Source: Lytechinus variegatus (lineage: Eukaryota; Echinodermata; Echinoidea; Temnopleuroida; Toxopneustidae). Taken from it: a DNA stretch of 64,000 nucleotides. The notes below the pieces were generated by a model. The model saw only the letters and a list, made by a program, of their open reading frames with translations, was not told the origin of the DNA and searched no databases. The stretch lies in NCBI RefSeq assembly GCF_018143015.1, contig NC_054758.1, positions 4,883,501 through 4,947,500 of the forward strand. The letters run 5' to 3'. Both the position numbers and the translations under genes were made by a program. Below are positions 28,263 to 43,984 of this stretch, in pieces (the first letter of the stretch is position 1; every line of letters starts with the position of its first letter).

Positions 28263-28749
28263 GCCTTAATACTTATTTGCATATGCAAATCTGATAGTGT
28301 CCAATGATTATTCAAATATAAAGAGAATGAAGCTCAGACCTATGAATTACAATAAAGAGGAGATGATGGAAATTTATTGGGCACACACTAAGGTGGGGGG
28401 GGGGGGCCTGAAAGCATCTGCAACATAGCATTGACCTGAGCAACAAAAAGGAAAAAAGGAAAAGTGTTAACAAATTATCATTTCCTCCTATAAAAGCCTC
28501 TTGATTTACTACAAATTAATGAGTTATTATTTTACACATTTATTTACGATATCCAATTTGACAAAGCTATAGCTAGTAACAACAACCACTGCGTACGGAC
28601 CCCTGAAGGCTGAACAGAGTTATCGTGTAATGTTGGAAGTTTGACTATCGTAAGATTGTGCTTTATTTCTATATATCTACCGTTATTTATTGTTACCGTC
28701 GATATCAAATAAAACAAAACTTATCGCGGACGGTTTGTATTGAAACGGA

Positions 28750-29215
28750 AGGCCCAGGACCCTACGACTTCAAGTCACGTACTCGGCTGAAGAAAGCGCT
28801 CAACGAGCATAGAGCCACGTCGGTGCACTTTCAGCAGCAGCGAGAGTGACAGTGACGGAGCCGATGTTGAGCCACCGCACCACCACCAGATAGACTGGAC
28901 GATGACTGGTGCAGTTGTGGAAATTGTACAGTGATGCCAACGCAAATGGATTGCATATGTTGCCACGAGATAGGAAACTGCAGTCAATTTTTGTCTCCGT
29001 CTGTGAACTGTGTTATAGATTATGAAGATTTTTCAAAAGTTTGTCTTGACTGGTGCAATTGTGGAAATTGAACAGTGATGCCAACGTAAATGGAGTGCAT
29101 ATGTTGCCACGAGATAGGAAACTGCCATCATTTTTTGGCTCTGTTTGTGAACTGTGTGATAGATTATGAAGATTTTTCAAAAGTTTGTCTGGAGCGTGCG
29201 GTGTTGAGAACTGCG
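28750..29215 (+). pseudogene. P2X7 C-terminal 'ballast'-type Cys-rich domain, broken, with 144-bp tandem duplication
   Basis: Reading along +: 'GPGPYDF' (28751), an acidic Ser-rich linker 'SSSESDSDG' in another frame, then 'DDWCSCGNCTVMPT' and 'DCICCHEIGNC' (28901 on), and 'VIDYEDFSKVCL'. The latter block is repeated immediately (starting 28904 and 29048, exactly 144 bp or 48 codons), and the second copy continues into 'ERAVLRTALVARLD'. This layout matches the zinc-binding cytoplasmic C-terminal domain of vertebrate P2X7, which also occurs in many invertebrate multi-copy proteins without a channel. Here no channel segment is visible. The second copy has in-frame stops (TGA after 'CNCGN' and TAA after 'TVMPT'), and there are frame changes in the linker, so it is not a working gene. 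Confidence 0.7.
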
Positions 29216-29648
29216 CTTGTTGCCCGCCTGGACTAGTCTAGATCTGGACGTTCGTGGTTATTTGTTTGGAAAACCCTGCACGCATTCACCGCACACATAA
29301 TATACCCGCCCGACTTTCACCTACCTCCACAAACGTCCAGTTCCATTCAGTTCATTTTACGACCTTGCTTCAAAATTCTGAAGCAAAGCAATAAAACCAG
29401 TCCCTCCCACCTCCTAGCGAGTTTGTTTGTTGTGTGCAGTAAAAAACAAAGCATGCAGTGCGAATGTGGTGGTACTGTGCCTACATATATACGCTATATA
29501 CGGCGGCACATTCAAATTGTGTGTAGACCGGCGCTTACCAATTTGTAGATTCCAAACGAGTTCTGATTTTTTAGATTCCAAATGAGTTCTGATTTCTGAT
29601 ACATGCTTACTGATATCGTCAATTCTGGGCTTTCTGTTAATTGTTCCA

Positions 29649-31140
29649 ATGATGGAAACAACAACAACTTGTGTCGATTCTTCCATCATTCGTGATTCCA
29701 TCGTGTATGCCAAAAAGAAGTTGGGAATATCAACTCTCAAGCCACAGCAGGAGAAAGCATTTGAATCTATGTTAAGAGGGCACGATGTTTTCATGGGGTT
29801 ACCAACAGGTTATGGGAAGAGCGTTGTTTTCCAAGGAGCGGCATTCTGTAGCGAATACATCAAGAGAATTCAAGAGAAGGACGACAGTAATTTTGTGGTT
29901 GTTGTCATGCCACTGAAGGCCCTTATTAAAGATCAACTGACCAGAGCTGGTGAACTTGGCATTGCTGCGGCTGACATAAGTAGTGGACTGACCGATGAAC
30001 TTAGAGAGCAAATATCGTGGGCAAGATTTCGCTTTTGATGTCTTCTCCCGAGTTTCTGACCGGAGACTCAGGATCAGAATTTTTGAAGTCAGACTCTGTG
30101 CAACAGCAACTATGTGGATTTTTTGTTGATGAGAGTCATTGTGTTACGAGATGGTGAGTTTAGATCTAGATCTACAGCTTAATATTTCAGTTAGTCTGCT
30201 GTGCTATCGTCAGGTCTAACTCTAACTAAGTAACGTTAACTAGATCTAGGTAACCTGGTTATCATGGTATCATCATGAAAAATTTGATCTGGAATCTAGA
30301 TCTAACGTTAACGTTTGAGACCTTCTTCTAGACATCGAATACTTTATAACACCATTAAAATTTTGTGAACTGTTTTGTGAAGATTTGAATATTCTATTTT
30401 TATAAAATTTTGACTGCTTGTTTGATTTCAAATCAATATTTACTTGGGTGGATTTGCATTTTAATTTGTCTTAAAACCACAATTTGAAAGGAGATAATAA
30501 TGTTAAAGTTACTATGAATGTAAATGTACATGTAGTCTTAGACAAAGGGGAAAATCAGTGACCATTGGAAATTATTTTTTGCAACATCATCCAATTTCTG
30601 TCAGTTACATGTTAATTTTGGGGTTTAAAAGTTTCTACAGTATGACTAGATGCATACATTTAAATCTAATTAAAAAATATTCAACATTTTCATTACAAAT
30701 TCATACATTGTTGACTTTTCATCCTGATGTGTCATCTGTATTAAGTCTAAGCATACTTATTCTTTCTATATGCAGGGGTCAGGCATCAGGGAAGACACAA
30801 GCTTTCTGTGGAAGTTACGGCCAACTCGGAGAGATACGGTCAACACTACCATCAGTCCCTGTCATTGCTATGACAGCAACGGCAACAACAGAGGCAAGGA
30901 AGCAAATTACACACAGCTTGGCCATGAGGAACTATGCCACTATCGTGGAGTCTCCAGATAAACCCAATTGATATCAAACATGTCATGTTGGAGACCAGAA
31001 TGAGAGATGTCGCCGATTGCATGGAGTTTCTGATTGATGAGCTGAAGACCAAGGGACAGCGGTGTGAACGTGCCATTGTTTATTGCCAATCAAGGAAGCT
31101 TGTACCTGACCTGTATGCAATTTTTTGCAGTGAGTTGCCT
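29649..31140 (+). pseudogene. RecQ-like DNA helicase (superfamily 2), degenerate, one intact intron
   Basis: RecQ helicases unwind DNA with ATP. The start Met at 29649 leads to 'LKPQQEKAFESML', Walker A 'GLPTGYGKS', motif Ia 'VVVMPLKALIKDQ', 'LLMSSPEFL', Walker B 'FFVDESHC' and 'RW'. An intron follows (30154-30775; GTGAG...GCAG, phase 2) and joins to 'GQASGKT', 'SYGQLGEIRS', 'IAMTATAT' (motif III) and 'AIVYCQSRKLVPDLYAIF' (motif IV). Two frame changes are evident, one after 'REQISW' (about 30018) and one after 'SPDKPN' (about 30968). The rest of the second RecA-like lobe (motifs V and VI) is missing: sequence runs straight into the exonuclease-like region at about 31185. The close 'MPLKALIKDQ' and 'ATIVESPDKPN' style is that of multi-copy mobile-element-associated RecQ genes, not BLM or WRN. 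Confidence 0.75.
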
Positions 31141-31184
31141 ACGTCATCTGCTGCTTTTGTTCAGATGTTCCATACAGCATACAT

Positions 31185-32705
31185 CAAATACATCCCAGCG
31201 AGCTCATCACAGGAAGCTGACAGTGGTAGAGAGTGGGCTTTTTGTATCAGAGACACAAATATTCTTGGGGGCAAGTCCAGATGGAGTGGTGAGTTGCCAG
31301 TACTGTGGAGAGGGCGTACTTGAAATAAAGTGCCCATTTAGTGCATCACACACCTTTCCTTCGCCAGAGAATGTTGAATTCCTACAGGCATCAGATGATG
31401 GGACTGTTGGTCTAAAGAAGTCCCACCAATATTTCTCTCAAATACAATTTCAAATGGGAGTAATGAAGCGTAAATGGTGTGACTTCTTTGTCTACTCAAG
31501 ACATGGACAGCACAACATACAAGTACAATTCGAGCAAGATAGATGGGACGAATTACTTCTTCACAGCAAAGACTTTTTACATCAGAGAAATTGCCGATGA
31601 ATTAGTTTCGGCAGCTGCCGTATAAACTCCTTTACCCGAACTATATCTAGCAGAGACTTACATGTACTCTTTGAACATTCTTAAAGGCTGATGAACCTCT
31701 CTCCACACAGATAATCCAAGTTGACGTCACCATCAGTGGGAATGACAAGGAGATAACCACCAGGCCAGTGGCAAATGCAGCAAGGGCTCCATCGGTGCCG
31801 CCACCTGGACCTGACCCCGTACCAGCTCCGAATAGAATTGGCAAGAGTGTGGGAGCTGTGTGCCCATGCCGTCAGTGATTCAGTGTCGCTGTAGCCATGA
31901 AGTGGACAACTGTGATAGGTTTCGAGATGAAAGAATAACTTGCATTGTAAGACACGAGGACTTTCATAAAGTATGCCTCGAGAGAGTAGTTTTACGAACC
32001 GCCCTTGTCGCCAGACTAGATTCGAGAGGACATCGAAGGAACTTGCCTGAAGTGCTTGATAATGTGTAATTGAACTGCAAAATGAAATGACAATATCTTT
32101 GCGACCTTGCCACTTTCCAAAACATGTTCTACCACATGCCCAGACATTGGACACATTCAGACGTAAACCCACCACCTTTTAAAAAAATAATTTGTACATG
32201 TAGGTCATCAGAAATTGCTACATTGCCATTGATGCATGCAGTGGCGGACCGTGACCTGGAGGAGACAAAGCATTGGAGGTGCACTGTATTGTTTGTGAAC
32301 AATGCTGTGCCCTTCCAATGCTTTGTCCCCTCCGGGTCATGGTCCGCCACTGGATGCATGTAATATTAGAAGATTCATCTACCCACCGCTACTGCTAAGC
32401 TTATTTGTAGCTGCAGAGTCTATACCATGCTCTTTTCCAACACTTGCATTATATGATTGTAAAATTCAGTATCAACGTCAGTAATCATATTCTTCCTTTT
32501 TTCCAGTTCCCAGAGATACGTAGCTTGCAGGCTATTTACCTAGTGGGTCCATCGCTACCTGGGAAAGGGCATCCTTCAGGTGATTCCTGCCTGTGCTGTC
32601 ACACGGATCCATGAGGCTTTCCCTGCACCAGATGGAAATTACATTGGATTCAAGGAGGGAGATGATGGAGAGGAGATTCCTGTCCCCGAAGAATTGATGA
32701 TCTAA
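31185..32705 (+). pseudogene. YqaJ-type exonuclease fused to a second ballast-type Cys-rich domain
   Basis: The first segment (to 31600) reads 'RKLTVVESGLFV', 'FLGASPDGVV', 'GVLEIKCPF' and 'QIQFQMGVMKRKWCDFF'. The D of SPDG and the E-x-K of EIK are the catalytic pattern of the PD-(D/E)xK YqaJ/lambda-exonuclease fold, which acts on DNA ends. After an acceptor near 31710 comes a Pro-rich linker, then 'CGSCVPMP' and 'CRCSHEVDNC', and 'FHKVCLERVVLRTALVA'. A phase-2 intron (32066-32506) joins to 'YVACRLFT', 'HRYLGKGILQVIPACAVTRI' and 'FPAPDGNYIGF', ending TAA at 32705. These are the later parts of the P2X7-like ballast domain. One TAG lies in frame (after 'RLFT') and a frame change lies before 'CGSC'. 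The intron contains a 114-bp hAT-like MITE. Confidence 0.75.
32239..32352. mobile_element. 114-bp hAT-like MITE with perfect 8-bp TSD GATGCATG
   Basis: CAGTGGCGGACC and GGTCCGCCACTG ends, flanked by GATGCATG at 32231-32238 and 32353-32360. Sister of 16061-16174, with the same length. It lies in the intron of the ballast-domain gene. Confidence 0.9.
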
Positions 32706-33331: not shown

Positions 33332-33832
33332 AAGGCGACAATATTCTTTTTCTATTTCAAGGCCCATTCCATTAAACAAAAATGCTTTGTTGGAACTTCA
33401 GGAAGTTGGAAGTTCAGGACCTCAAGCGGCGTTGCTTGCCTAACAGCCAGAGTTCCATGAAGAAAAGAAAAATTCTAAATGTGCGGCAGCCAGGCGGCTA
33501 TAAAAACAAAAAGAATAAGTGAATACAGGGAATCATTTGTCATAGAACTCTTAAACACACAATTTTTTCTGTATAAGCATGTTCTTGTTTAGATAGTACT
33601 GTCAAGAAGTCCAACTAAACATTGAACAAATTTGAATGAAATTGCAAGAAATATGAAAAGACTCAAATGTTTCCACATCAGTGCCATGTTATATGATATC
33701 AAAACAAAAAAAAAGCTGAGTATTTCAGATAGGTTTTGGGCGATAAAACTTTGTCTCTTTCATCCTGTTCAGTCTATGTGTCTATGCGTTTTACGTGTTG
33801 AAGCAAAAATCTCATCATAACGATCGATCAAG

Positions 33833-34110
33833 ATGGAGGTAAAGAGGAAAGCAAATTTTACTGAGGAGGAGAAAGTCACACTAATCGATGAAATAAGAGA
33901 CAGGGAAGATATCCTGCGACCAAAATCCAATTCTAGGGTAACCTTCCAAGAGAAAGAAAAGGTGTGGGCCGAAATTGCCCTCGAACTAAATGCTGCAAAC
34001 CCCATGGTGAAGAAATCGGTGCTAGAAATTTAGAAAAAATGGCACAACTTAACAAGCACCATGAAAGAGAATCTACATCAATAGAAACGGGCAATGGATC
34101 GGACAGGTAA
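33833..34110 (+). pseudogene. Myb/SANT-like DNA-binding exon (transposon accessory type)
   Basis: ATG at 33833 gives 'MEVKRKANFTEEEKVTLIDE', then 'VTFQEKEKVWAEIALELN', a TAG at 34031, and continuing in frame 'KKWHNLTSTMKENLHQ' before a second stop. A donor-like cag|gtaagc is at about 34108. This fits the Myb/SANT-like N-terminal domain of Harbinger-type accessory proteins, with Trp at the expected spacing. Two in-frame stops suggest a decayed copy. Confidence 0.5.
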
Positions 34111-36730: not shown

Positions 36731-37250
36731 ATGCCTAAAAAATGACAGAAATACGTAAAAAAACGAAGAAGGATTCAATGGAATCCCGTGGCAAGACATC
36801 AAAAAGGCCAGGAAAGAGGCAAACGAAGATCCATCACCCAAGACAGCTTCAGAAAGGAAGCTAAAGTTGAATAACTCCCCTGCTGCACTAAATTCCAAGC
36901 CTGGTCCCACTCATACCAATCTGCGTCAGGCTTTGGAGGGGAATTATATCAGTGGACCTCTTCTGACAGCTGCCCTTCAAAAGGCTCATGTGTGTCCAGG
37001 AGGTGAGATATTTTTAAATCAGGCATTACTTATGTGTTAAACATCTAATTTAAAGTAAAAAATATTCATTATTATTTACGAATTTTTTGTGTCTTATTGC
37101 AGCCAGGCAAAGCTATCTACTGCACATGCAGCGCAGTCTTATTTTTGTGGTCAATACTTTAGCATCAAAATTTAAATGTAAACAAGTTAAAACTGCATTG
37201 GAATTTGAAAGAGAACCATGAATGGATTGAAGCTGATAAATATTTTGTAA

Positions 37251-38343
37251 ACAAGTGGAATGCCTCTGGCCGTCTCACCTGCATCACGCGGTTCAATATA
37301 GCAGCAGTGCTGACTTGAATACTACTCTAACTCGCACAAGATGTTCAGTGATACATGGTTACTCTTATGTCCACTTTTTATGAACTAGACCAATAAACTT
37401 ACAGAGATATGACGGTTATTCAACAAAAAAACCCAACATGGCCAAAGTTCATTGACCTTTGACCTTGATCATGTGACCTAAAACTGGAACAGGATGTTCA
37501 GTGATACTTGATTACTCTTATGTACAACTTTCATGAATCAGATCCATAAACTTTCAAAGTTATGATGGTAATTCAACAGATACACCCAATTCGGCCAAAG
37601 TTCATTGACCTTTGACCTTAGACATGTGACCTGAAACGTGCACAGGATGTTCAGTGATACTTGATTACTCTAATGTCCAAGTTTAATGAACTAGACCAAT
37701 AAACTTTCAAAGTTATGATGGTAATTCAACAGATACCCCGATTCGGCCAAAGTTCATTGACCCTAAATGACCTTTGACCTTAATCATGAGACCTGAAACT
37801 TGCACAAAATGTTCAGTGATGCTTGATTACTATTATGTCCAAGTTTCATGAATCAGATCCATAAACTTTCAAAGTTATGATGGGAATTCAACAGATATCC
37901 CCAATTCAGCCAAAGTTCATTGACCCTAAATGACCTTTGACCTTGGTCATGTGACGTGAAACTCATGCAGGATGTTCAGTGATACTTAATTAACCTTATG
38001 TCCAAGTTTCATGAACTAGGTCCACATATTTTCTAAGTTATGATGACATTTCAAAAACTTAACCTCAGGTTAAGATTTCGATGTTGATTCCTCCAACATG
38101 GTCTAAGTTCATTGACCCTAAATGACCTTTGACCTTGGTCATGTGACATGAAACTCTAATAGGATGTTCAGTAATACTTGATTAACCTTATGGCCAAGTT
38201 TTATTAACTAGGTCCATATACTTTCTAAGTTATGATGTCATTCCAAAAACTTAACCTCAGGTTAAGATTTGATGTTGACGCCGCCGCCGCCGTCGGAAAA
38301 GCGGCGCCTATAGTCTCACTTTGCTTCGCAGGTGAGACAAAAA
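37251..38343. mobile_element. ~1.1-kb repeat element with internal ~160-bp units, copy 1
   Basis: It starts 'acaagtggaatgcctctggc' and ends 'cttcgcaggtgagacaaa'. GTCTCACCTGC near the left end is inverted as GCAGGTGAGAC at the right end. Inside are about six degenerate units with 'caaagttcattgacc', 'aggatgttcagtgatactt' and 'aactttcaaagttatgatgg'. Five carry TGACCTTTGACCTT (37453, 37606, 37768, 37931, 38123). A GCC-rich hairpin lies near the right end. It is in the intron of the Mutator-like gene. No protein is encoded. Confidence 0.8.
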
Positions 38344-39474
38344 CGGTATGGATTGAGATTTTTAATTTGTATTTCAAACTCAAGTGCATACTACTGCTCA
38401 TGACAAACAATGTGCCCGGCATGGCATCACGTCGCCATCGGTGCACATTCCATCACAAGAATGTTATAGATTACCAATTACTTTGCATGATAGAACAAGG
38501 CTGAACATAATCCTATTGCATGATATTTATGAATCTGTCATGCAATATTGACAAAGGATTATTGTCATGATTGTAATATGAATGAACTAATGAACATGTG
38601 TTTGCATGGTGTTTATATTTCAGGATACCTCATCCCTCTCAAAGACGAGCCTAAGTGAAGTGGGCTGAATACCAACATCGTTCTCCGGTGTTCTGAGTGT
38701 GGTGCCGAGTTCTCCTTTGTGACTTCAGAAAATGTCTTTCGAGGCCATCCAGATGGCAAAAGTGCCAGTATTAATAGGAAGGCAGTCCTGGCAGCATCTG
38801 AAGTTGGACTGGGGAGAGTGGGCTTGGCGGATCTCTCCAGCATCATGAGACCGGCACCACCACCTGAACAGCGGAGCTATCAGCGGCACTTGAAATGTGT
38901 GGCAACAGCTTCTGATCAGGAGATTAGATAAGTTTGTTATAAGCTAATTTTCATATGTGATGCAGTGTTCACTTTAAGACAATAATCTCATACTGAGCCA
39001 ATCAAATATCTGAATAATTATAAAATCTAGATCTTATCTTACGTATAGAGTATAAAATATTTATCATGCAGTGTATAATGTATTTTTGGCCAAAAAAATC
39101 TTTATGACCTGTGCTGATCAAATATCAATCTTGTAACTAATTCTTGGTGGGTTTTCTTCTTTTTTATATTACAGGTATCTGAGGAGCAAATGAGGGAGGC
39201 TGCGAAGCGCCTGAGGGACAAGGCCAGAGAAGAAGACCCCTCAATTGGACCTGAGGATATTGTGGATGTGGCAGTGTCTATGACGGTACATGGCATAAGC
39301 GTGGGCACACGTCGAATCATGGGGTGGGGGTGGTGATATCATTAGATACTGGGGAGGTTTTGTCAAAAGTATGTAAGGAATGCAATGCACGGAAGGGATG
39401 GGATAGGTATAAGAAATGGAAGAGTGAGCATGAGTGTTATAGGGGTCATAGTGGGTCTAGTGGGGCTATGGAAG

Positions 39475-39683
39475 TAGTCCAGATTGGACCTTGTTGTTTG
39501 AAAGTGCCCTTTCCCAAAAGCTAACATAGAGGGCACATGTCTCCCAATCTCTATTCAGCGCCAATCTACTCATCTTGACTCAAGATGAGTAGATTGGCGC
39601 TGAATAGAGATTGGGAGACATGTGCCCTCTATGTTAGCTTTGGGGAAAGGGCACTTCCAAACAACAAGGTCCAAACTGGACTA
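39475..39683. mobile_element. 209-bp near-perfect palindromic MITE, 9-bp TSD (Mutator-type)
   Basis: TAGTCCAGATTGGACC and GGTCCAAACTGGACTA ends with ~100-bp arms. The flanks CTATGGAAG at 39466-39474 and 39684-39692 are identical. The host frame reads 'HSGSSGAME' into the left flank and 'MEAAGAKTLW' out of the right flank, so insertion into the transposase is certain. A 9-bp duplication is typical of Mutator elements. Confidence 0.9.
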
Positions 39684-40590
39684 CTATGGAAGCAGCAGGA
39701 GCTAAAACATTATGGAGTAGGGCAGTAACTAAACATAAATTAAGATTTAAATACATGTTAGGCGATGGGGATAGTAGTGCTTTTAAGGGTGTAGAGGAGA
39801 TTTATGGGGATGGGCATAAGGTACATAAGGTAGAGTGTGTAGGGCATGTAGGGAAACGTGTATAAGGCATTAGATAAGTATCGTAAAGATAAATCGAGTG
39901 AATTGTTAAGTGATGGTAAGAGGGTGGGGCATGATAAGGGCAGACTAAGGGGAACATCAGATACACTATCAATAGGAAGATTAAGTAAATTATATAGGGC
40001 AACAATACGTAGTTATAGTAATAAGGGGGCATTAGATAATGAAGAAGATAAGGTTAGGGCTGTAGAGAAGATGCGCAAGGCAATACTGGCAATCCTGTAT
40101 CACTCAGTAAAAATGAGAAAAAACGGGATACGGTACGTCACCAGTACTGTCCCAAAGAAGGATGGTGTGAGTACAAAAAGACAGGCAAACAGGTCAACAG
40201 AGAGAATCACTTAGACCCTGTGTTTCTCAAAGAGCTGTTGCCTTCATTCACGCGACTCAGTAATCCAGATCTCCTTGAGAGATGCCTCCCAGGTATCACC
40301 CAGAACCAGAATGAGAGCTTCAATGCTCTCATCTGGAAAAGGTGTCCTAAACACCTGTGGAGAGGTCCACGTGTTGTACGCACTGCAGTCAACCATGCGT
40401 TCAACTGTGGCGCAGAGAATGGTCGCAACAGATTTATTTAGACACCTTCGACTCCCAATGGGGATCACACCATTCATGCAGCACGTAAAAGGGATTATTG
40501 TAGATTAAGTAATGCTAAATATAAATCAAGTAAATTAATAAAGAAAATTAGGGAATTGGGTAGGAAAGCTAGGAAAATTAGATTCTTCTA

Positions 40591-41778: not shown

Positions 41779-42725
41779 ATGGCGGCTGCTCAGGCATTGC
41801 CCGACTTGAACGAATTTGAGTCTCTTTCGCTGGCAGAGATTGGGCACAGATTTAAATACAACAGGGATGCCACCAGAGACTGGTGCCGCATGTATAGACT
41901 ATTAGCATCAGAGATGATGTGCCCTGGATGCGGAGGTCGTTGTAGAGAGAGAATGTTCCACCAGGCCATTGACAAAGTTTGCTGGAGATGCCCTGTTGAA
42001 GGATGCCGAAAAGTGACAAACATTAGAAAAGGAAGTTTCTTTGAGAGGAGTCATCTAGAAATTTGGCAAATCCTAGGCATAAGGTATATATGGTCATCTA
42101 GTTGCGGGAAAGCAAGGGTATGTCCCAAGTGAACATTAAAAAAGAGCTTGGAATTGCAGACTATACCGTCGTAGATTGGAAACAGTTTTGCAGGGATGTC
42201 TGTGTTCAGTATTTCTTGAACCACCCTGAACAGCTCAGAGGTCCTGGCGTGCTGGTTGAAATCAACGAATCCCTGTTCCCAAGGAGGAAAACTAACGTCG
42301 GCAGGGCTGTAGCCAAGAAGTGGGTCCTTGGAGGCTATGAGCCAGCATCCAAGAGAGGCTTCCTAGTTGAAGTGCCCCAACGAAATGCTCCAACACTACT
42401 CCCCATCATCCAACAATGGGTAGCACCCGGCAGCACCGTTTGGACTGACATGTGGGCGGCATATCATCAACTGCCCAACTTGAACTATCAACATGGTACT
42501 CTCAACCACACCATCAACTTTGTTGATCCAGCTACAGGGGTAACAACCAACAGAGTAGAGTCGATGTGGCAGCGAGCCAAGGCCAAGTTCAAGGCTCAGC
42601 AAGGACCAACCAACAGAGAACTTGTCGGTGAATACCTGTGAGAGTTCATGTGTTCGCAACGTTTTGCAGATGCTCCATTCTTCCACTTCTGGCACCAGGT
42701 TGCCGTAGATCTATACCCCATTTAG
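41779..42725 (+). mobile_element. Merlin (IS1595/ISXO2-like) transposase, inactive
   Basis: ATG at 41779 ('MAAAQALPDL') leads to a zinc ribbon 'MMCPGCGGRC' ... 'CWRCPVEGCRK', then 'GSFFERSHLEIWQILGI'. After a frame change (about 42085-42110) come 'LGIADYTVVDWKQFCRDVC', 'GVLVEINESLFPRRKTNVGR', 'KKWVLGGYEP', 'GSTVWTDMWAAYHQL', 'HGTLNHTINFVDP', 'TNRVESMWQRAK' and 'FMCSQRFADAPFFHFWHQV', ending TAG at 42725. The order of zinc ribbon then DDE core is that of Merlin elements. Damage: the frameshift, a TGA at 42639-42641 where the family has Trp, and the first catalytic Asp (expected D-E-S) reads Asn. The second Asp (TDMW) and the Glu (VESMW) remain. No terminal repeats were identified. Confidence 0.85.
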
Positions 42726-43025: not shown

Positions 43026-43984
43026 ACAAGTGGAATGCCTCTGGCCATCTCACCTGCATCACGCGGTTCAATATAGCAGCAGTGCTGACTTTGAATACTA
43101 CTCTAACTCGCACAAGATGTTCAGTGATACATGGTTACTCTTATGTCCACTTTTTATGAACGAGACCAATAAACTTACAGAGATATGATGGTTATTCAAC
43201 AAAAAACCCCAACATGGCCAAAGTTCATTGACCTTACATGACCTTTGACCTTGATCATGTGACCTGAAACTCGCACAGGATGTTCAGTGATACTTGATTA
43301 CTCATATGTCCAAGTTTAATGAACTAGACTAATAAACTTTCAAAGTTATGATGGTAATTCAACAGATATCCCCGATTCAGCCAAAGTTCATTGACCCTAA
43401 ATGACCTTTGACCTTAATCATGAGACCTGAAACTTGCACAAAATATTCAGTGATGCTTGATTACTATTATGTCCAAGTTTCATGAATCAGATCCATAAAC
43501 TTTCAAAGTTATGATGGGAATTCAACAGATATCCCCAATTCGGCCAATGTTCATTGACCCTAAATGACCTTTGACCTTGGTCATGTGATGTGAAACTCAT
43601 GCAGGATGTTCAGTGATACTTGATTAACCTTATGTCCAAGTTTCTATGAAAGGTCCATCATATATTTTCTAAGTTATGATGACATTTCAAAAACTTAACC
43701 TCAGGTTAAGATTTCGATGTTGATTCCTCCAACATGGTCTAAGTTCATTGACCCTAAATGACCTTTGACCTTGGTCATGTGACATGAAACTTTAATAGGA
43801 TGTTCAGTAATACTTGATTAACCTTATGGCCAAGTTTCATGAACTAGAACCATATACTTTCTAAGTTATGATGTCATTTCAAAAACTTAACCTCAGGTTA
43901 AGATTTGATGTTGACGCCGCCGCCGCCGCCGTCGGAAAAGCGGCGCCTATAGTCTCACTCTGCTTCGCAGGTGAGACAAAAAAA
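43026..43984. mobile_element. ~1-kb repeat element with internal ~160-bp units, copy 2
   Basis: The same start, end and internal units as 37251-38343, with one unit fewer. TGACCTTTGACCTT occurs at 43239, 43402, 43565 and 43759. The right end has a GCC-repeat hairpin and 'cttcgcaggtgagacaaa'. Confidence 0.8.

Follow-up and report, generated by a model that had tools for sequence, protein, structure and literature searches.

Nested, decayed DNA transposons as the probable source of an apparent helicase-nuclease-ballast gene in Lytechinus variegatus

Introduction

DNA transposons of the Kolobok group are among the closest described systems to the locus reported here. As far as the available text of their 2022 description goes (PMC9587614), they have TTAA target-site duplications (TSDs) and 5′-RR...YY-3′ termini, and their accessory proteins include a lambda-exonuclease-like nuclease (KolobokE), a RecQ helicase found only in fungi (KolobokH), and KolX, which has the ballast fold and from which the ballast domain in the tail of the P2X7 channel was derived. 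Ballast genes have also been linked to two markers across invertebrates, in a paper whose accessible part does not contain the word transposon (PMC7016195). The sequence treated here is a 64,000-nt stretch of the Lytechinus variegatus genome (C19:4883501-4947500, numbered on the + strand; hereafter the window, with contigs cited as C1, C2, and so on), and the searches covered 869.6 Mb in 33 contigs. At 28511-32705 on its + strand lie, in order, a ballast domain (copy 1), a two-exon RecQ-type helicase, the C-terminal half of a YqaJ-type nuclease, and a second, two-exon ballast domain (copy 2).

A sequence-only reading of the window had placed a RecQ-like helicase, YqaJ, and two ballast domains in 28750-32705, and each part was confirmed where it had been placed. 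Every part of the block is damaged. We consider it, with a probability of about 0.82, to consist of two kinds of decayed DNA transposon, piled up and nested in one another, with a false helicase-YqaJ fusion. The evidence comes chiefly from element boundaries, both in the window and at related loci elsewhere in the genome.

Results

The helicase-YqaJ junction

The first helicase exon (29649-30154, +; motifs I to II, in a numbering that we take to be the usual one) includes a DEAD domain (PF00270, E = 4.6e-13, in the open reading frame, or ORF, 29586-30035), and pieces of it are 64-80% identical to a helicase on C11. It is open for 150 amino acids (aa); its start codon was checked, and a GT donor at 30155 was read by eye. 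The second (30776-31180, +; motifs III to IV), preceded by an AG acceptor, also read by eye, aligns to a helicase on C4, including the runs TATAT and VYCQS. Past motif IV, after VQMFHT (about 31180), similarity to the helicase ends, with none to motifs V and VI, and a few bases on similarity to YqaJ begins (31184-31632, +; PF09588 positions 74-146, 1.9e-11; 50-51% identical to C4:56712605 and C2:43757450). The sequence-only reading had described motifs I to IV running directly into the nuclease, and the two similarities do adjoin there: within 31174-31190 (+) one stops and the other starts. Because helicase and YqaJ are each cut in mid-domain at this point, the junction fits a fusion by deletion, one of two origins that reading had offered, and a deletion probably did fuse them.

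A helicase element with its own termini

The C11 helicase belongs to a complete 3,462-bp element, bounded by 91-bp terminal inverted repeats (TIRs) that are 95.6% identical and start TAGTCTAGTTCTAGACG. An 8-bp TSD, GGTCAGGC, is present on both flanks. The element sits in a retrotransposon (presumably of Gypsy type), with an RVT_1 domain (4.7e-30) adjoining the insertion site; with the element removed the retrotransposon frame is continuous, reading "...SGIKPDPEKVAKVRDW..." or, in longer form, ...VSASGIKPDPEKVAKVRDW.... This helicase is 65% identical to that of the window. Among the element's ten ORFs of at least 80 aa, the C-terminal helicase ORF matches Helicase_C (2e-10), the other nine match no Pfam family, and two of these nine can be aligned to the helicase with tblastn. 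Neither ballast nor YqaJ nor a transposase was found in the element.

In the window, the start of the helicase lies 415 bp in from a TIR terminus of this kind. Its left TIR (TAGTCTAGATCTGGACG..., 29234-29334, +) has the same end as C1:5907610 (99%); C1 carries both this terminus and the leader of the window helicase at 99%, and in a DNA search window 29231-29771 recurs on C1 in pieces at 99-100%. The TIR was thus seen with a helicase at three loci, at both ends on C11 and at one end each in the window and on C1. The stretch 29234-29334 is also the arm (about 100 bp) of miniature inverted-repeat transposable elements (MITEs), of which those on C10 and C2 have 9-bp TSDs (CCCAGCTAA and CCTTCAGGC), and the C11 element end is related to this window and MITE end (the TAGTCTAG type). 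Mutator-like elements (MULEs) have long TIRs and TSDs of 8-11 bp, as do the C11 element, with its 91-bp TIR and 8-bp TSD, and the two MITEs, with their arms of about 100 bp and 9-bp TSDs.

Upstream of the terminus is ballast copy 1 (28511-29233, +), which has 78-91% DNA identity to a ballast locus at C13:34023-34025 kb. This homology ends at the helicase-element terminus, 29233/29234 (29236 as aligned). Since ballast copy 1 stops at the very terminus from which the helicase is 415 bp away, the helicase element most likely jumped into the ballast gene.

On C1 (C1:5907200-5918200; L068/L069), a 340-bp helicase-leader stretch occurs twice beside a left TIR, in opposite orientation and about 9 kb apart, together with 307 bp that are absent from the window copy.

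Family and conservation of the helicase

The C4 copy has the three parts that mark the RecQ family: a DEAD domain (PF00270, 3.1e-11), Helicase_C (PF00271, 1.2e-18), and a RecQ zinc-binding region (PF16124, RecQ_Zn_bind, 25.6 bits against a cut-off of 25). Its closest PDB matches are WRN and then RecQ, and it has two open stretches, of 172 and 444 aa. The C11 copy matches Helicase_C only, and the window copy is truncated before that domain.

Among the window, C11, C4, and C16 helicases, all six pairs have saturated synonymous sites, with proportions of differences of 0.74-0.81 at synonymous (pS) and 0.21-0.38 at nonsynonymous sites (pN), over 282-527 codons per pair with stops and frameshifts excluded. 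By this comparison the protein was conserved as the copies diverged; the selected unit could be the element or the host. A search of viral contigs for sequences related to the helicase and to a ballast protein gave none that was confirmed.

The unexpected part is an animal TIR transposon with a RecQ helicase as its only detected gene, conserved between copies; among the titles listed by searches of the open-licence literature, none was on an animal TIR element encoding only RecQ. We tentatively suggest, at somewhat less than even odds, a lineage of animal TIR transposons with a RecQ helicase as its own and only protein, under purifying selection across divergent copies and without a transposase. 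It would be the source of the same-ended MITEs, and would either be mobilised in trans or move in some undescribed manner that uses the helicase.

Kolobok-type transposase and ballast

Farther along the + strand, and absent from the sequence-only reading, is a frameshifted Kolobok-like transposase (38623-40441). PF20700 matches it in three pieces between 38623 and 39862 (1.8e-9, 1.7e-8, and 9.6e-7), and similarity continues to 40438, the last part being 84-90% identical to relatives on C10 (within 32190000-32207000 and 26608000-26616000). DGTW, DGDS, CVGH, and QNESFN can be read by eye, together with a CCHC finger after the first D (CKEC..HECYRGH); by this reading the protein has the DDE residues and the C/DxxH motif between the second D and E that characterise Kolobok transposases, and the finger of KolobokE/P/D. 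A putative 5′ exon (36759-36999, +) was recognised by eye, as were its splice sites, and has no Pfam match.

The clearest elements of this kind are on C15 and C5. These two copies are 98.8% identical over 15,966 bases of C15 and have different flanks, giving an element of about 15.9 kb. At C5 the ends are TTAA|AGGAGAA ... TTCTCCT|TTAA, with one mismatch at the right end on C15, so that both hallmarks of Kolobok, the TTAA TSD and the 5′-RR...YY-3′ termini, are present. The element carries a PF20700 transposase (7e-8) and both ballast exons, in convergent order: here the ballast domain (P2RX7_C) is encoded together with a Kolobok transposase.

Other loci repeat parts of this association. On C12 a transposase, ballast exon B (independent E-value, iE, 5e-19), and a downstream YqaJ share one strand over about 8 kb; no termini were found there by a TTAA-end search, which missed its positive control. 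C18 has YqaJ with ballast after it on the same strand (iE 3e-6 and weaker), and the ballast at C11:27.53 Mb has transposase pieces next to it that are 63-76% like the window transposase. Since KolX and the KolobokE nuclease are described, at least in the available text of PMC9587614, ballast and a nuclease are to be expected near a Kolobok transposase.

Two further details concern ballast and YqaJ. The C12 exon (C12:14332701-14333304; L074) falls exactly between transposase positions 266 and 267 on the same strand; it could be an exon lying within an intron, or it could be an insertion. On C9 and C2 there are near-identical copies of an open frame of 568 aa that includes a YqaJ domain (L001, L002, L003); in a scan of L001 a PHD-like end fell just below the Pfam cut-off, and its N-terminal part looks SWIM-like by eye. 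No TSD was seen at the ends of the three YqaJ blocks.

In the window, ballast copy 2 consists of exon A (31836-32069, +) and exon B (32508-32705, +), with 57-63% protein identity to copies on C13 and C1 and matches to P2RX7_C. Exon A is weak by Pfam alone (P2RX7_C, E = 0.22); its homology runs via intermediates, and the local ballast profile that matches it includes its own sequence. The profile for exon B was built without that exon, which it matches at iE 5.8e-16. The sequence-only reading had noted no channel in sight, and a Pfam scan of 20 window ORFs, in which no P2X channel model was searched for specifically, found no channel family. Given KolX as the source of the P2X7 ballast (PMC9587614), the lack of a channel beside the ballast domains is to be expected.

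Another end, ...CCTTTAA, is common to ballast copies on C4 and C19. On C1, ballast exons A and B form tandem arrays at two places, on opposite strands (C1:26193794-26200513 and C1:24466540-24471561). Ballast-like stretches beside the C16 helicase were rejected as evidence: they are 21 aa long, with iE 0.01-0.03, and are three copies of one tandem unit.

Neighbour counts

Genome-wide neighbours within 10 kb were counted among the matches listed, excluding the window: 63 helicase, 18 YqaJ, 25 ballast, 30 PF20700, and, as controls, 41 piggyBac loci and two MITE sets of 33 and 37 loci. The locus lists hold the best candidates of each search, making all counts lower bounds; several rows that fell at loci already in the lists were not entered a second time. 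Expectations assume uniform placement, with C6 and C7 taken to be 46 Mb each. Of 30 ballast rows, 11 with E > 1e-3 were dropped (C18 and C16 among them), and the C12 ballast exon, found only by the local profile, is outside the count. The helicase match at C10:17715835 is doubtful: it overlaps a transposase match in another frame.

PF20700 lies near ballast three times (0.017 expected), representing two independent cases since C15 and C5 are copies of one element, and near YqaJ once (0.012 expected). Helicase-YqaJ, helicase-ballast, YqaJ-ballast, and piggyBac-YqaJ pairs all number zero, and the two MITE sets have no neighbours in any 10-kb comparison. At 30 kb a single helicase-YqaJ pair appears (C9, 25.6 kb). 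The sequence-only reading had proposed such a count for helicase, YqaJ, and ballast: among the matches listed outside the window the helicase neighbours neither of the others within 10 kb, and it is PF20700 that neighbours both YqaJ and ballast.

PiggyBac (PF13843) and PF20700 were seen within about 4 kb on the same strand at C10:17712201-17716514, C10:32191348-32205685, C11:27533959-27539706, and C9:18858114-18861395. At C10:32.19 Mb the two alternate as if tandemly repeated.

Discussion

A proposed course of events

The first kind of transposon would be Kolobok-type debris on the + strand: ballast (KolX) genes, a YqaJ nuclease, and the PF20700 transposase, of which YqaJ, ballast copy 2, and the transposase may stem from a single element. 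The second would be a separate TIR element, with a RecQ-type helicase as its only detected gene, that entered ballast copy 1 at 29233/29234. The 3′ half of the helicase, the right TIR of its element, and the 5′ half of YqaJ would then have been lost in a subsequent deletion, leaving the false fusion. The helicase was rejected as a Kolobok part in view of its own TIR and TSD on C11.

As to function, the Kolobok transposase would insert at TTAA, with YqaJ (which we take to have a 5′-3′ exonuclease fold) and KolX perhaps helping to process or regulate the ends. Long TIRs and 8-9-bp TSDs make the helicase element Mutator-like; probably a MULE-type transposase moves it in trans, or it is a deletion form of a larger element. 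Its RecQ helicase might assist strand unwinding or gap repair at insertion.

Alternative explanations

Several observations weigh against a two-transposon origin of the block. No right TIR of the helicase element was found in the window, so its TSD is uncheckable there; TSD length in the helicase family varies, from 8 bp on C11 to 9 bp in two MITEs; and neither the C4 nor the C16 helicase was found to have a TIR around it. A search for TTAA with RR/YY ends around the block (starts 24-36 kb, ends 34-50 kb), which does recover the C5 ends, gave only an AT-rich pair at 32179/35352, at chance level (at least one pair in 7 of 50 shuffles). Finally, among the matches listed, PF20700 has a helicase within 10 kb three times (0.044 expected), so that some elements may hold both, and the control piggyBac four times (0.028 expected). 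PiggyBac-helicase and piggyBac-ballast pairs occur once each (0.060 and 0.024 expected), at loci that also have PF20700. With no termini found around it, the window block is not itself classed as a Kolobok element, and its Kolobok-type parts are assigned by content only. Nearness of piggyBac to PF20700, possibly reflecting transposon nests or shared use of TTAA, means that the argument is carried by boundaries and not by nearness.

A rival reading is one composite mobile element with transposase, RecQ helicase, YqaJ nuclease, and KolX, of which the helicase-only C11 copy would be an internal deletion product. All four are on the + strand within a 12-kb part of the window; PF20700 has neighbours among the helicase (3), YqaJ (1), and ballast (3) loci far more often than uniform placement predicts; and each accessory protein is known singly from some Kolobok lineage, from what is available of PMC9587614. 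However, the helicase terminus (TAGTCTAG, 8-9-bp TSD) is of a different kind from the Kolobok terminus (TTAA), and among the matches listed no helicase outside the window neighbours YqaJ or ballast. The order of helicase and transposase, and their orientation, also differ among the three PF20700-helicase loci, the C8 pair being in opposite orientation. We consider a composite element improbable. The sequence-only reading had offered one mobile element as its other option: this is not supported for the helicase, whose own TIR element on C11 was found without ballast, YqaJ, or transposase, and holds partly for the other three, which recur together and are known Kolobok parts. The target duplications that it had suggested looking for do exist, but those of the two element types differ (8-9 bp versus TTAA).

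That unrelated fragments gathered here purely by chance, and that ballast, YqaJ, and transposase have no Kolobok link, seems more improbable still. The block does contain unrelated insertions (a MITE, a foldback, a Merlin element, and tandem repeats), and piggyBac near PF20700 suggests regions that gather transposons. Against this, a single TTAA-flanked element, present at C15 and C5, encloses both ballast and PF20700, C12 and C18 again show YqaJ in a ballast or transposase neighbourhood on one strand, and the control MITE sets (33 and 37 loci) have zero neighbours throughout. A living host gene encoding a helicase-nuclease fusion protein with ballast domains, as the single orientation, the plausible introns (by eye), and the 150-aa open helicase exon 1 might suggest, is hardly credible: helicase, YqaJ, and both ballast copies have frameshifts or stops, similarity to the helicase is gone before motifs V and VI, half of YqaJ is absent, and a transposon end opens the helicase leader.

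Damage and other features of the window

The helicase has two frameshifts, near 30013 in exon 1 and near 30968 in exon 2, and YqaJ has a frameshift near 31595 and a stop at 31630-31632, both read by eye. Ballast copy 1 has three stops and a 144-bp internal tandem duplication (28903-29046 and 29047-29190, +). In copy 2, exon A has a frameshift and a Ser replacing one Cys of a CC pair (by eye), and exon B has one stop near its start.

A palindromic MITE with inverted arms of 62 bp (32232-32359, no strand assigned) occupies the ballast intron; a DNA search gave 1483 candidates, of which 40 were scored, and this MITE accounted for most of the matches. Between ballast and transposase is a Myb/SANT-like DNA-binding domain (33821-34033, +; PF13873, 1.9e-13). 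The transposase gene contains a foldback (39473-39685) whose 106-bp arms are 97% complementary with 1 base between them. A tandem-repeat insertion is present in two copies, 37250-38343 and 43026-43982, 93-98% alike in part, one of them within an apparent intron of the transposase gene. A further transposase, at 42102-42641 (PF12762, DDE_Tnp_IS1595, 1.1e-16), is presumably of Merlin type.

Comparison with known systems

As a structure the block is ordinary: nested, decayed transposons with a likely deletion fusion. What looked like a helicase-nuclease-ballast gene most likely consists of the remains of nested transposons, and its worth is the RecQ-only TIR element behind the helicase. If this helicase-only family is real and selected, the question is why a cut-and-paste element would retain a RecQ helicase and not a transposase.

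With the Kolobok groups Kol0/KolX, KolobokE, and KolobokP/D, as presented in the available text of PMC9587614, the loci described here share the TTAA TSD and RR/YY termini (at C15 and C5), a ballast-fold KolX, a lambda-exonuclease-like nuclease near the transposase, and, by eye, the C/DxxH motif and CCHC finger of the window transposase. The TTAA-flanked ballast and transposase element adds, in another genome, to the KolX origin reported for the P2X7 ballast. The window block differs in that no termini were found and that YqaJ is upstream of the transposase rather than downstream (PMC9587614, same text). The Cys-rich ballast domain without a channel also recalls the P2X7 C-terminal ballast and the ZCD proteins of invertebrates, which the accessible part of PMC7016195 presents as a gene family with conserved neighbours; here the copies are in or beside transposons, as PMC9587614 argues.

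KolobokH and Kolobok-1_CCri are, like the helicase element, DNA transposons carrying a RecQ helicase (PMC9587614, so far as available). The element described here is from an animal, has a helicase as its only detected gene, and has 91-bp TIRs and an 8-9-bp TSD instead of TTAA. KolobokH has RecQ downstream of a Kolobok transposase and a TTAA TSD; in the C11 element no transposase was found and the TSD is GGTCAGGC. Fungal subtelomeric RecQ helicase genes are likewise multi-copy and repeat-borne, as described in the accessible part of PMC4522978; unlike them, the C11 copy, with its TIRs, interrupts a retrotransposon as a clean insertion. Where ends are visible, on C11, the helicase is outside any Kolobok element.

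It is MULEs, and Pack-MULEs among them, that the helicase element resembles in its TIRs of about 100 bp, its TSDs of 8-9 bp, and a carried gene without a transposase. In contrast to Pack-MULEs, its passenger is not a random fragment of a host gene, but a helicase that is conserved as a protein across divergent copies.

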